From IMG/VR virus record IMGVR_UViG_3300031976_000209, positions 1 to 25,721 of that record: a stretch of 25,721 bases of DNA; one strand, written 5' to 3'. The stretch comes from a virus. Positions 21,478 through 23,612 of this stretch are shown piece after piece. Each line of letters begins with the position of its first letter. The first letter of the stretch is position 1. The position numbers and the translations under genes are program-made. The notes under the pieces are model-generated. The model worked only from the letters and a program-made list of their open reading frames with translations, did not search any database and had not been told where the DNA came from.

Positions 21478-21580
21478 CTTTCTTTACCTCATTTAAAATT
21501 TCTTGTAACACGTCCTTTATTTCTTTGACTTCTTTTTTTAATTTGATAATATCGTTTTCCATATCTATTGCTCTTCCCAT
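21377..21580 (-). CDS. Small coiled-coil protein with low-complexity tail, 67 aa
   Basis: AAAGGAG lies six bases before the ATG, which also overlaps the HNH gene's TAA. Residues 7-33 form a heptad-like helix (MENDIIKLKKEVKEIKDVLQ), and the rest is a hydrophilic Lys/Asp/Ser/Asn-rich tail likely to be disordered. The whole tail is coded by the same DNA as the start of the 73-aa protein in another frame, which may explain its odd composition. An oligomeric helix plus charged tail might tether partner proteins; nothing more specific is supported. Confidence 0.65.
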   Translation of the reverse strand: MGRAIDMENDIIKLKKEVKEIKDVLQEILNEVKKDEKKKANVKRSADSNRKSNSTDDESGGKDTKSK

Positions 21581-22044
21581 TACTTACTCCTTTCTCTGAG
21601 TTTGTGAGAGTGCCAGTTTTGTTGTTTTGCTGTCTTTTTCCTATGACAGTTTGCACATAGTATGATACACTTTTCGATTTCTTTTTCAATGCTTTCGACT
21701 GAATATCCATGTGTTGCCATATTCGAGACATCATTTCTTTTCGTTTTCGGGTCCAGATGGTGAAATTCCAAGACAATAGGATTAGTTTCACCACAAGAAG
21801 TACAAGGATTGCTAAGCTTAAACTCATAAATTAAGTTCCTGCCCTCTTCTCTATACTTTTTAGTATTTTTTCTAGACCTTTCAATGTAATCATGCTTGTA
21901 TAGTTCATAATGAGCCTTAGAGTACTCATTAGTGCAAGGTTTACATTTATTGGACCTAACGCCCTTATTTTTGATTTTCCAGCTAAAATCTGATATTTTA
22001 TATACTTTATCACAATATTTACACTTCTTAGTGTTTGGTTTCAT
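21580..22044 (-). CDS. HNH endonuclease, 154 aa
   Basis: ATG at 22044 is chosen over a TTG at 22083 because it leaves only a short overlap with the upstream gene; the local Shine-Dalgarno is weak. An N-terminal zinc finger has C8/C11 and C34/C37. A basic helix leads to the HNH domain: C81-x2-C84, EFHHLDP with H95/H96, and LCANCHR with C130, N132, C133 and H134. These are the expected metal, base and structural residues of a beta-beta-alpha-metal nuclease. Such free-standing enzymes in phage replication regions are often homing endonucleases, though packaging-related HNH proteins exist. The activity is well supported; the biological role is inferred. Confidence 0.88.
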   Translation of the reverse strand: MKPNTKKCKYCDKVYKISDFSWKIKNKGVRSNKCKPCTNEYSKAHYELYKHDYIERSRKNTKKYREEGRNLIYEFKLSNPCTSCGETNPIVLEFHHLDPKTKRNDVSNMATHGYSVESIEKEIEKCIILCANCHRKKTAKQQNWHSHKLRERSK

Positions 22045-22342
22045 TGTCTTCAACCATACCCCAAAATAAAATACAGTATACAATTATATCTGTTAGCCGA
22101 CCTCTTACATCTTCTCTTTGTGATTGATGCCCATCTGAGTAGGCGCACAGCCCATCAACATGTTTTATCATATAAGTAAGTAAAGCTTTCTCTCTACTAA
22201 CCCCACAAAAAGATGCTACTCTTTCAAAGTTTGCAAAAACATTATCAATGTCTCTTGCATACTCTTTCTGTCCAGCATCACGAGTTTCTGTAATTCTTTC
22301 CATGATTTTGCTCATGAGTGATTGCATTTCGTTTCTACGCAT
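22028..22342 (-). CDS. Conserved-looking small phage protein, 104 aa
   Basis: A GTG at 22345 and an ATG at 22342 are adjacent in frame; ATG is listed. The sequence has AGQKEYARDIDNVFANFERV, then a second helix (SREKALLTYMIKHVDGL) and SQREDVRGRLTDIIVYCILF. The spaced E, H, D/RE and D residues on helices recall small phage families with a nucleotide-handling all-helical fold (DUF1599/Nmad-like), but the match is loose. It lies between the basic 47-aa gene and the HNH gene with short overlaps on both sides. If the comparison holds, nucleotide metabolism is the likely theme; otherwise function is unknown. Confidence 0.68.
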   Translation of the reverse strand: MRRNEMQSLMSKIMERITETRDAGQKEYARDIDNVFANFERVASFCGVSREKALLTYMIKHVDGLCAYSDGHQSQREDVRGRLTDIIVYCILFWGMVEDNETKH

Positions 22343-22478
22343 CACGCATCTTTCTGTACGCTCTATTATTAGTGTACTCTGCTCCGACCATCACACAAAG
22401 TGGCCAACCATTAGGGCTTTCAGCAAGTTCCCTTCTGATTTTTTTTATTCTTTTGTGCATACGATTTCTAGTTTTCAT
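22335..22478 (-). CDS. Small basic protein, 47 aa
   Basis: Found by reading the sequence: the ATG is preceded by AGGAGAGG with ideal spacing, and the TAG that contributes to this site is the stop of the upstream membrane peptide. The first 16 residues are strongly basic (MKTRNRMHKRIKKIRR), followed by a more neutral part with NGWPLCVMVGAEYTNNRAYR. The frame ends just inside the next gene. The basic head suggests nucleic-acid contact, possibly RNA or DNA, but there is no recognised fold. Strong initiation signals and tight packing support expression. Confidence 0.75.
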   Translation of the reverse strand: MKTRNRMHKRIKKIRRELAESPNGWPLCVMVGAEYTNNRAYRKMRDA

Positions 22479-22486
22479 TACCTCTC

Positions 22487-22588
22487 CTATCTAAAATAAC
22501 TTACAACGTAAACAATAATTGAAGCCCAACAAACTACACCTACAACAAACATAGATGAGTAGACTATAAAATTTAACCAGTTAATCAT
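22487..22588 (-). CDS. Single-pass membrane micro-protein, 33 aa
   Basis: The ATG sits four bases after a perfect AGGAGG and overlaps the end of the zinc-ribbon gene by eight bases. Almost the whole peptide is one hydrophobic span (IVYSSMFVVGVVCWASIIVY), with a short SYFR end. The TAG stop forms part of the next gene's Shine-Dalgarno. Small phage membrane peptides in early regions can tune lysis, exclusion or membrane attachment, but none of these is indicated here. The span and the signals are seen; the role is unknown. Confidence 0.72.
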   Translation of the reverse strand: MINWLNFIVYSSMFVVGVVCWASIIVYVVSYFR

Positions 22589-22739
22589 TTTGACCTCCTA
22601 ACGGTAGATAACATTCGTAGTAAGATTCACAGTCTGGACAGCTGAAGTTACTAACAACTCCCTCTCCTTCTTTACCGTAGTCTTCATACGTATGGTCTCC
22701 ACCCCAAATTAGCTCTGATTTACAATGCCAACATTGCAT
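22581..22739 (-). CDS. Small zinc-ribbon protein, 52 aa
   Basis: Two cysteine pairs are visible: C3-x2-C6 (CWHC) and C34-x2-C37 (CPDC), separated by an acidic loop (GGDHTYEDYGKEGEG) and followed by YYECYLPLGG. That C-x2-C/C-x2-C spacing is a classical zinc ribbon, and very similar 'CW-C-x-LIWGGDH' micro-proteins occur in other phages. AAGGAG lies upstream. It might bind nucleic acid or a host transcription or replication protein; the sequence does not decide. The gene sits just downstream of the inverted-repeat element. Confidence 0.82.
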   Translation of the reverse strand: MQCWHCKSELIWGGDHTYEDYGKEGEGVVSNFSCPDCESYYECYLPLGGQND

Positions 22740-22751
22740 ATTATTCTCCTT

Positions 22752-22847
22752 TTAAAATTGTGGGAGACCTGAAAGGTAGAAAAGAACTGTGGTAGAGAGG
22801 ACCACAAAAACCACCCATGTATTCTCACGATATACAAAATCTCCCAC
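22752..22847 (-). CDS. Tentative membrane micro-ORF, 31 aa
   Basis: A GTG five bases after the stop of the helix-turn-helix gene opens a frame whose middle is a clean hydrophobic span (TWVVFVVLSTTVLFYLSGL) and whose TAA abuts the next gene's AAGGAG. This spacing fits an operon gene read by translational coupling. Against it, no Shine-Dalgarno is present and the frame lies wholly inside a strong inverted repeat that could itself explain the sequence. It is reported as a possible gene only. Confidence 0.35.
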   Translation of the reverse strand: MGDFVYRENTWVVFVVLSTTVLFYLSGLPQF

Positions 22848-22848
22848 A
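22759..22848 (-). other. Structured element: 9-bp inverted repeat enclosing hairpins
   Basis: TGTGGGAGA (22759-22767) and TCTCCCACA (22840-22848) are perfect complements. Inside are TGTGGT (22788-22793) with ACCACA (22801-22806), a 6-bp stem and 7-base loop, and the smaller ACCT-GAA-AGGT (22767-22777) and GTAT/ATAC (about 22819-22835) pairs. In the leftward transcript this could fold as a closed multi-branched domain ending about ten bases before the Shine-Dalgarno of the zinc-ribbon gene, where it could control translation or processing. It is not a tRNA (see rejected list). Folding is inferred from base complementarity, without energy calculation. Confidence 0.45.
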
Positions 22849-22852
22849 TCAT

Positions 22853-23008
22853 TTATCTTTTAATGTGTCTGTAGACTGTTGCTGGTGAAACCCCAACAAT
22901 TCTACTTATTCTTTTGCCTTTCATACCAAAACCGTATAAGGTGTTGATAAGAAACTCTCTAGACCATCCAACCTTTTTATACTTCCTCTTAGAATGGGAT
23001 GTCTGCAT
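22853..23008 (-). CDS. Short helix-turn-helix DNA-binding protein, 51 aa
   Basis: Found by reading the sequence: GGAGGAG lies nine bases before the ATG, which sits inside the last codons of the SSB-like gene in another frame. A basic N terminus (SHSKRKYKKVGWSREF) precedes a helix-turn-helix of the Hin/resolvase type: GKRISRIVGVSPATVYRHIKR (residues 31-51, split here as GKRISRIVGV and SPATVYRHIKR). That two-helix pattern with G-V-S at the turn and T-V-Y-R in the recognition helix is strong. With no catalytic domain it is likely a small regulator or origin-binding protein, possibly acting on the palindromes nearby. The DNA target is unknown. Confidence 0.8.
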   Translation of the reverse strand: MQTSHSKRKYKKVGWSREFLINTLYGFGMKGKRISRIVGVSPATVYRHIKR

Positions 23009-23612
23009 CTTTTTTCACTCCTCCTTCCCATTGCTTTACAAACTTAACAACATAAGGTGTCCTCTCTTGACCCTCTTTGTTTTTATAAGGCTTACCAGTA
23101 TCTATCATAGCAATTACTGGTGTACCATCAATATCTGAAGCTTGTAGTGGCGGTAAAACCTGTACCTCAACGTCTTGACCGTCCATTTTAACCACTTTTC
23201 TAGGTATCTCTACACCAATAGTCTCACAGAACCTAAAGTATCTTTTATTACCGCTAGAATTAGACACAAAATCATCACCTTCTTTTGGCTCTAAGAATCT
23301 AAAGATTCCATTTGATTTGTAAGTTCTACCTACATACTCTTTTCCAGAGTATTTCTGGTCACCTTTTTTATACTCAAACTCTTCGTTTTTACCGTCAACA
23401 ACAAACTCATAGTTATAAACTAAAGCCTTAAATGTTTTACCGTCTTTAGTCCATGACACTTCTCTGCTTGTTGATGATTGTAGGTGTCCATAAAATTCGC
23501 CTCTTACATTTGGCGCATTTTTAGGTTTTGAATCTGTTTCTTCGCCTGGAACAAAGAAACTCTCTGTATCGTTTAACATTTCGTCAAACATTTTAGCTGT
23601 TTCATTAGCCAT
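22989..23612 (-). CDS. SSB-like protein, 207 aa
   Basis: The start overlaps the annealase stop (TAATG), with AAGGAG inside that gene. The protein ends KKDADIPF, the acidic-hydrophobic tip by which single-strand binding proteins recruit partners. The body is beta-rich (VSWTKDGKTFKALVYNYEFV, YVGRTYKSNGIFRFLEP, KRYFRFCETIGVEI) with aromatics spaced as in OB-fold ssDNA binders. Location next to an annealing protein and nuclease agrees. The fold is not proven here, but the tip plus context make an SSB role likely; coating ssDNA at replication forks and recombination intermediates would follow. Confidence 0.7.
   Translation of the reverse strand: MANETAKMFDEMLNDTESFFVPGEETDSKPKNAPNVRGEFYGHLQSSTSREVSWTKDGKTFKALVYNYEFVVDGKNEEFEYKKGDQKYSGKEYVGRTYKSNGIFRFLEPKEGDDFVSNSSGNKRYFRFCETIGVEIPRKVVKMDGQDVEVQVLPPLQASDIDGTPVIAMIDTGKPYKNKEGQERTPYVVKFVKQWEGGVKKDADIPF

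Follow-up and report, generated by a model that had tools for sequence, protein, structure and literature searches.

Between two minus-strand genes of the virus contig IMGVR_UViG_3300031976_000209 (IMG/VR; the whole stretch analysed, 25,721 nucleotides, is called the window here) lies a stretch of about 90 bases. Does it hold a functional element and, if so, of what kind? An initial annotation proposed a structured RNA or cis-element closed by a 9-bp stem: a translational switch, a processing site or a small RNA, perhaps sharing its bases with a 31-aa membrane frame. The right part of the window carries on the minus strand, in order, genes for a Cas4-like nuclease, a Sak annealing protein, an ssb-like protein (a label given from position, the protein being without a family match) and a 51-aa helix-turn-helix (HTH) protein, then the element, and then the gene for a 52-aa CxxC protein for which no Pfam or PHROG family was found. 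An HNH endonuclease gene (21580-22083) lies in the same operon; no tRNA was found in the window.

A three-way junction RNA in the gap

The perfect 9-bp inverted repeat enclosing 22759-22848 is present in the window sequence. The outer stem, P1, counts 10 bp in the comparative structure and 12 bp in the minimum-energy fold of the window. Both strands of the stretch fold better than dinucleotide shuffles: the minus strand reaches -31.4 kcal/mol (z -3.34; 1 of 200 shuffles equally good) and the plus strand -24.3 kcal/mol (z -2.99; 2 of 200). A three-way junction RNA made of P1, P2 and a composite arm, P3-P4, is well supported for these 90 bases (Table 1). The inner hairpins of the annotation are real, except that its 6-bp hairpin (P4) does not stand free: it continues a second stem, P3, with a U-rich internal loop between the two.

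Table 1. Features of the RNA and its flanking genes, in 5' to 3' order of the minus strand
Feature	Position	Strand	Basis and remarks
51-aa HTH protein gene, upstream	22853..23008	(-)	Pfam HTH_7, E 4.7e-5, 23.9 bits against a cut-off of 23.8; stop codon 4 bases ahead of P1
Folded RNA, ~90 bases	22848 to 22759	(-)	gap between two minus-strand genes
P1 5' strand UGUGGGAGAU	22839..22848	(-)	partner 22759-22768; both-side changes in 5/10 pairs (19-sequence A/B/D alignment)
P2 hairpin, bulged A, GUGA (GNRA) tetraloop	22818..22836	(-)	both-side changes in 6/7 pairs (same alignment)
P3 5' strand GGGUGG	22811..22816	(-)	both-side changes in 6/6 P3 pairs (same alignment)
P4 hairpin, 7-base loop CCUCUCU	22788..22806	(-)	both-side changes in 3/6 pairs (same alignment)
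U-rich 3' side of P3/P4 internal loop, UUCUUUU	22780..22786	(-)	UUCUUU invariant in 14/14 A rows
P3 3' strand CUACCU	22774..22779	(-)	alignment, both-side changes
Junction J3/1 UUCAG	22769..22773	(-)	immediately after CCU of P3
P1 3' strand GUCUCCCACA	22759..22768	(-)	window fold and both-side changes
Shine-Dalgarno AGGAG of the next (CxxC) gene	22746..22750	(-)	sequence; outside the fold
52-aa CxxC protein gene, downstream	22581..22739	(-)	ORF; start 17 bases behind the RNA counted from 22757

The same parts recur, with variation, in the six branches (A to F) of the family described below. P1 begins with GGGAGA or a near variant in A, B, D, E and F and is GGGGUGGG-like in C. In the long branches P2 has a constant length and a C-GNRA-G tip, and among the members read 10 bases separate the P1 hexamer from the P2 tip CGYGAG (UGCGAG in L281). 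This fixed length and the GNRA loop suggest that P2 may dock on the P3/P4 internal loop. The U-rich side of that loop is UCCUUU-like outside branch A. The junction before the P1 3' strand reads mostly CUUUCA in A (the last P3 base counted), GGUUCA in B and CCUUUC in C, and is rich in G and U in D, E and F. Branch C is shorter, has other loops in place of the GNRA loop and lacks P4; L149 and L160 also lack P4, their P3 being capped by a loop instead.

Compensatory change and the functional strand

The structured RNA is strongly supported by compensatory changes in alignments of homologous phages. In the 14 rows of branch A (12 distinct), 93.7% of the cells are paired, compared with at most 60.8% when the partner strand is slid. 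Six pairs show changes on both sides, a number reached by 8 of 500 shuffles; the 15 further pair types are not above shuffles (mean 13.7, reached by 101 of 500). A second alignment comprises 19 sequences of branches A, B and D; it was made with the covariance model R1, and since the sequences were fitted to the model its figures lean in favour of the fold: both-side changes that keep pairing in 20 of 29 pairs, P4 included, 72 both-side cells against a shuffled mean of 20.2, 92.6% of cells paired against at most 57.6% when slid, and a covariation of 0.435 against 0.168 in shuffles, with all 500 shuffles lower on each of five measures. The alignments show that among related phages the RNA sequence varies while its predicted shape is kept.

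The functional strand was read from the non-Watson-Crick cells of 31 members aligned by hand, 28 of them distinct (L142, L175, L196, L246, L225 and branches E and F are left out). Standard pairs occupy 606 of its 645 cells, and G.U cells exceed A.C cells by 45 to 3, which identifies the minus (gene) strand as the functional one. In L008 R1 likewise scores 111.7 bits for the gene strand and 15.2 bits for the opposite strand.

The suggested dual use with the 31-aa frame was not supported in this clade. The frame is lost in 7 of the 13 close relatives while the stem pairing stays: a stop follows codon 10 in six of them, and L093 has no start codon and a stop after 14 codons. Residues past codon 13 differ among the rest. 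Loss of the 9-bp pairing with conservation of the frame, the pattern that would speak against a structured RNA, was not seen; the 13 close relatives show the reverse.

A family of 42 virus contigs

A search with the ssb-like protein led to 14 loci, 13 of them at 72-88% identity, and in all 13 of these close relatives the RNA lies at the same place with its fold kept. They form branch A together with the window, and R1 was built from this branch; in the window R1 detects a single copy. R1 was run on part of the loci: 76 sources, then 40, then 100 of 158 new loci. It recovers branch B, which lies behind the HTH gene as in the window (L014, L017, L142, L018, L132, L134, L196); branch E, in the slot behind the HTH gene (L281, L282, L295, L291); branch D, ahead of a gene with an EVKTERD-like motif (L149, L160, L246, L225); and branch F, behind an HNH-like gene (L250, L253). 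Branch C is recovered weakly (L031, E 0.0066; L035, 0.044; L077, 0.065; L037, 4.3).

A second model, R2, was built solely from these four C rows. It adds four C contigs (L150, L026, L030, L025), confirms three that had first been picked by a DNA pattern (L175, L177, L181) and reaches the window at E 3.7e-5. Eight of the 10 other A loci match at 24.9 to 39.1 bits, L093 is missed and L089 scores just 14.0 bits; no B, D, E or F member given to R2 was found. In these models branch C appears linked to the other branches through A alone. The family is thus recognised by models from separate branches, R1 from A and R2 from C. A third model, R3, gave no clear further member.

Counting the window, the family comprises 42 virus contigs (14 in A, 7 in B, 11 in C, 4 each in D and E, and 2 in F), all having an R1 or R2 match at E 0.02 or better; the E-values are rough, the rows used for model building (A with R1, four C rows with R2) match by construction, and some contigs are nearly identical to one another. 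Because the loci were picked by neighbouring proteins or patterns, the count says nothing about frequency. Matches kept out of the membership are L138, L173, L137, L139, L078 and L304 (R2), L309 and L259 (R1), and L145, L135 and L053 (R3); L138 passes the threshold (R2 E 0.0084) and is excluded for its fold, a plain hairpin. Also not counted are L293 and L302, both member-like by eye.

Outside these contigs no convincing copy was found. One DNA pattern for the long branches matched 15 stretches of bacterial genomes, with unrelated record titles, against about 14 expected by chance by our own estimate. The best R1 scores among them are 19.8 bits (E 0.021) and 18.6 bits (E 0.043), so that about 20 bits is the chance level for preselected sequence; for this reason R1 scores of 14-25 bits for branch C are insufficient without R2. 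The ssb-like protein profile gave 61 pattern matches in bacterial genomes and no relative. Among isolate phages, tblastn with the ssb-like and a 999-aa protein gave no matches, and the Sak (520 records), helicase (2177) and 105-aa (1) proteins matched only below 60% identity. Relatives of the CxxC protein occur in Pelagibacter phage HTVC027P, phage 023Pt_psg01 and AG-345-E15 (56-57% identity), and also in seawater viruses, which makes a marine source likely; the whole-record R1 search gave no match in these three named records. That search matched in 10 of 50 records and missed the RNA of L017, L031 and L035 that the earlier R1 search had found, so its misses, being those of a less sensitive search, prove little.

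Gene context

Spacing was counted in 37 members, without five near-duplicates. In 33 of the 37, 2-14 bases separate the end of the longest upstream ORF from P1, and in the other four this ORF touches or overlaps P1; behind the HTH gene the gap is 2-4 bases in all 22 members. The distance from the RNA to the next start that has a Shine-Dalgarno is 14-125 bases, and 14-30 bases in 23 of 37. In all members read, the RNA and its flanking genes share one strand. By eye, at least four gene contexts can be told apart: after the HTH gene, before the EVKTERD-like-motif gene, after small transmembrane (TM) genes and after an HNH-like gene. The downstream genes, also labelled by eye, vary equally and include CxxC, 47-aa, HNH-like, GIY-YIG-like, TM and EVKTERD-motif genes. 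Since the RNA sits between co-directional genes with unrelated neighbours in at least four contexts, a switch for one gene is unlikely. The promoter scan gave 2 sites where 2.5 are expected by chance, and behind P1 no terminator was found; the RNA thus lies inside an operon. The sequence comparisons show a fold kept by compensatory change on the RNA strand, not as a peptide in this clade, and between unrelated gene pairs.

Several loci hold further conserved stretches nearby. In L281 (1211-1309), L295, L282, L291, L293 and L302, a conserved frame resembling L.P.ERLR.Y.ELKYGK lies directly behind the RNA with no ATG at its head, and its start may lie inside the RNA. For the L281 group we considered ribosomal bypassing but abandoned it, since just 2 of 4 have both frames in the same phase. 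A second conserved element, made of a GGTNAC..GTTACC-like hairpin, GTCGAAA(A)GAGAA and a G-rich hairpin, follows just behind the RNA in L014, L017, L018, L132, L134 and L196; L019 has this second element without the first RNA. L302 has an additional stem-closed stretch (1474-1590) that separates its HTH gene from the RNA-like element, and a repeated motif, GGCTGGAAGTTGCAG or GGCTGAAAGTTGCA, lies behind the HTH gene in L029, L038, L140, L155, L169 and L172.

What the RNA may do

Family and fold are well supported; the mechanism, we infer, would run as follows. The RNA would be transcribed from the minus strand within the phage replication operon and would fold as a compact three-way junction that occupies the space from the HTH gene to the gene behind it. 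Left on the operon transcript, or cut out of it, the RNA would then work during infection, either as a small RNA or through a protein that it binds. We tentatively prefer this reading, in which a portable, operon-embedded element may act as RNA. The independence from neighbours and the kept loop and junction sequence argue that the RNA is a functional unit by itself; lying inside an operon without its own promoter or terminator, it would need either to be cut out or to act while attached. The reading is less easily squared with the 23 of 37 members that lie 14-30 bases before a Shine-Dalgarno start on the strand of the flanking genes, and with the next frame of L281, L295, L282 and L291, which seems to begin at or inside the RNA and looks like cis coupling.

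A close rival, only slightly less probable, is a cis-acting intercistronic element whose fold would control how the mRNA is processed, how stable it is or how ribosomes re-initiate on the next gene. A ribosome terminating at the upstream stop codon, which P1 directly adjoins, would hold the stem open. The tight upstream gaps fit such an element, although a compact genome alone would also yield them. By eye, several of the downstream Shine-Dalgarno sites contain AAAGG, the complement of CCUUU in the RNA, a match that any CCUUU would be expected to make. The L281-type frames beginning at or in the RNA favour the cis element as well; the downstream gap of 14 to 125 bases and the unrelated downstream genes do not.

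A metabolite-binding riboswitch, built as a three-way junction with tetraloop docking, is improbable. The unpaired bases of the junction and internal loop are conserved and P2 is constant, as such a switch would have it, but no expression platform overlapping the Shine-Dalgarno was seen by eye in the window, the downstream genes have no visible functional relation and no Rfam family matches. Still less probable is a transcription attenuator in which P4 and the U-rich tract form an intrinsic terminator. The single terminator-like site called in 22400-23200 is exactly P4 (0.5 expected); against this, the U tract is interrupted by C, it forms one side of an internal loop with the covarying P3 below, and P4 is dispensed with in branch C and in L149 and L160. 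An intrinsic terminator (G+C stem and U run) was not found across the family.

The two remaining readings are scarcely credible. A cruciform, origin or packaging site acting as DNA would explain the perfect inverted repeat; the excess of G.U over A.C cells on one strand, which implies pairing kept as RNA of that strand, led us to reject the cruciform, and the one-sided R1 match of L008 agrees. An overlapping small peptide with incidental structure could claim an NTG at the start position in 13 of 14 A rows and codons 2-10 open in all 14, but the loss of the frame in relatives, the G.U pairing and the both-side changes led to its rejection for this clade.

Relation to known RNAs

That no standard RNA family fits was borne out for the sequences scanned against Rfam 15. 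At gathering score there was no match in the window or in eight loci (one of them, L019, not a member). In E-value mode the window region matched only SNORA38, at 11.8 bits where 60 are needed, L160 matched nothing, and L161 and L250 had three matches each, far below gathering scores. The c-di-GMP-I model gave no match in the window or L160.

The c-di-GMP-I (GEMM-I) riboswitch is a three-way junction with a GNRA tetraloop. The RNA described here shares both features, possibly with docking on a neighbouring helix, and differs in having no Rfam match, no visibly related downstream genes and, in branch C, no GNRA loop. The stable RNAs C and D of phage T4 are small and structured, of unknown function, and lie within a tRNA cluster; compared by description only, they too are small structured phage RNAs, whereas ours lies between replication genes. 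The RNase III processing sites of phage T7 are long irregular hairpins between genes of one operon. They resemble the present RNA in being structured and in lying between phage genes of one operon, but ours is a three-way junction with conserved loops and a P1 of 9-10 bp.

Among the literature matches listed, no title dealt with this RNA family. According to one comparative study (PMC2864571), the manA and wcaG motifs are structured RNAs of marine samples and cyanophages, found by comparison and numbered in Rfam, and wcaG RNAs appear to regulate exopolysaccharide or high-light genes. The family here is likewise structured, found by comparison and, as some of those are, phage-borne; it differs in lying among replication and small unknown genes and in lacking an Rfam match. 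The L17 downstream element, placed there in a potential 3' UTR, had its strand argued from G-U pairs and GNRA tetraloops (PMC2864571), much as was done here; it follows one upstream gene while the present RNA follows several, and the present RNA has no Rfam match.

The gap as a possible slot for exchangeable RNAs

The gap behind the ssb-like and HTH genes might be an "RNA slot", in which different small structured RNAs are exchanged, one or two at a time, to act in trans in takeover or counter-defence, the present family being the most widespread cassette and also moving to other slots. We consider this broader idea unlikely. By eye, different stem-closed stretches seem to occupy the slot behind ssb-like/HTH genes in L153, L156, L136, L152, L135, L030, L148, L286, L296 and others. 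A folding test covered 61 distinct slots, from 179 loci with an ssb-like end, and 223 control windows; with some gene ends miscalled, z fell below -2 in 17 of 61 slots and 33 of 223 controls, and below -3 in 8 of 61 and 10 of 223. Seventeen of the slots hold the present family. Of the other 44, eight fall below -2 and two below -3, and their median z of about -1.15 is lower than the controls' -0.42. The absence of an excess of very stable folds in these 44 weakens the idea.

Implications

With this work, phages whose short gaps between genes easily pass for empty gain a well-supported RNA family, and an exact alignment is now at hand for seeking its RNA ends in infection transcriptomes. If the slot idea were true, an overlooked layer of exchangeable small RNAs would lie beside the replication genes of these phages.
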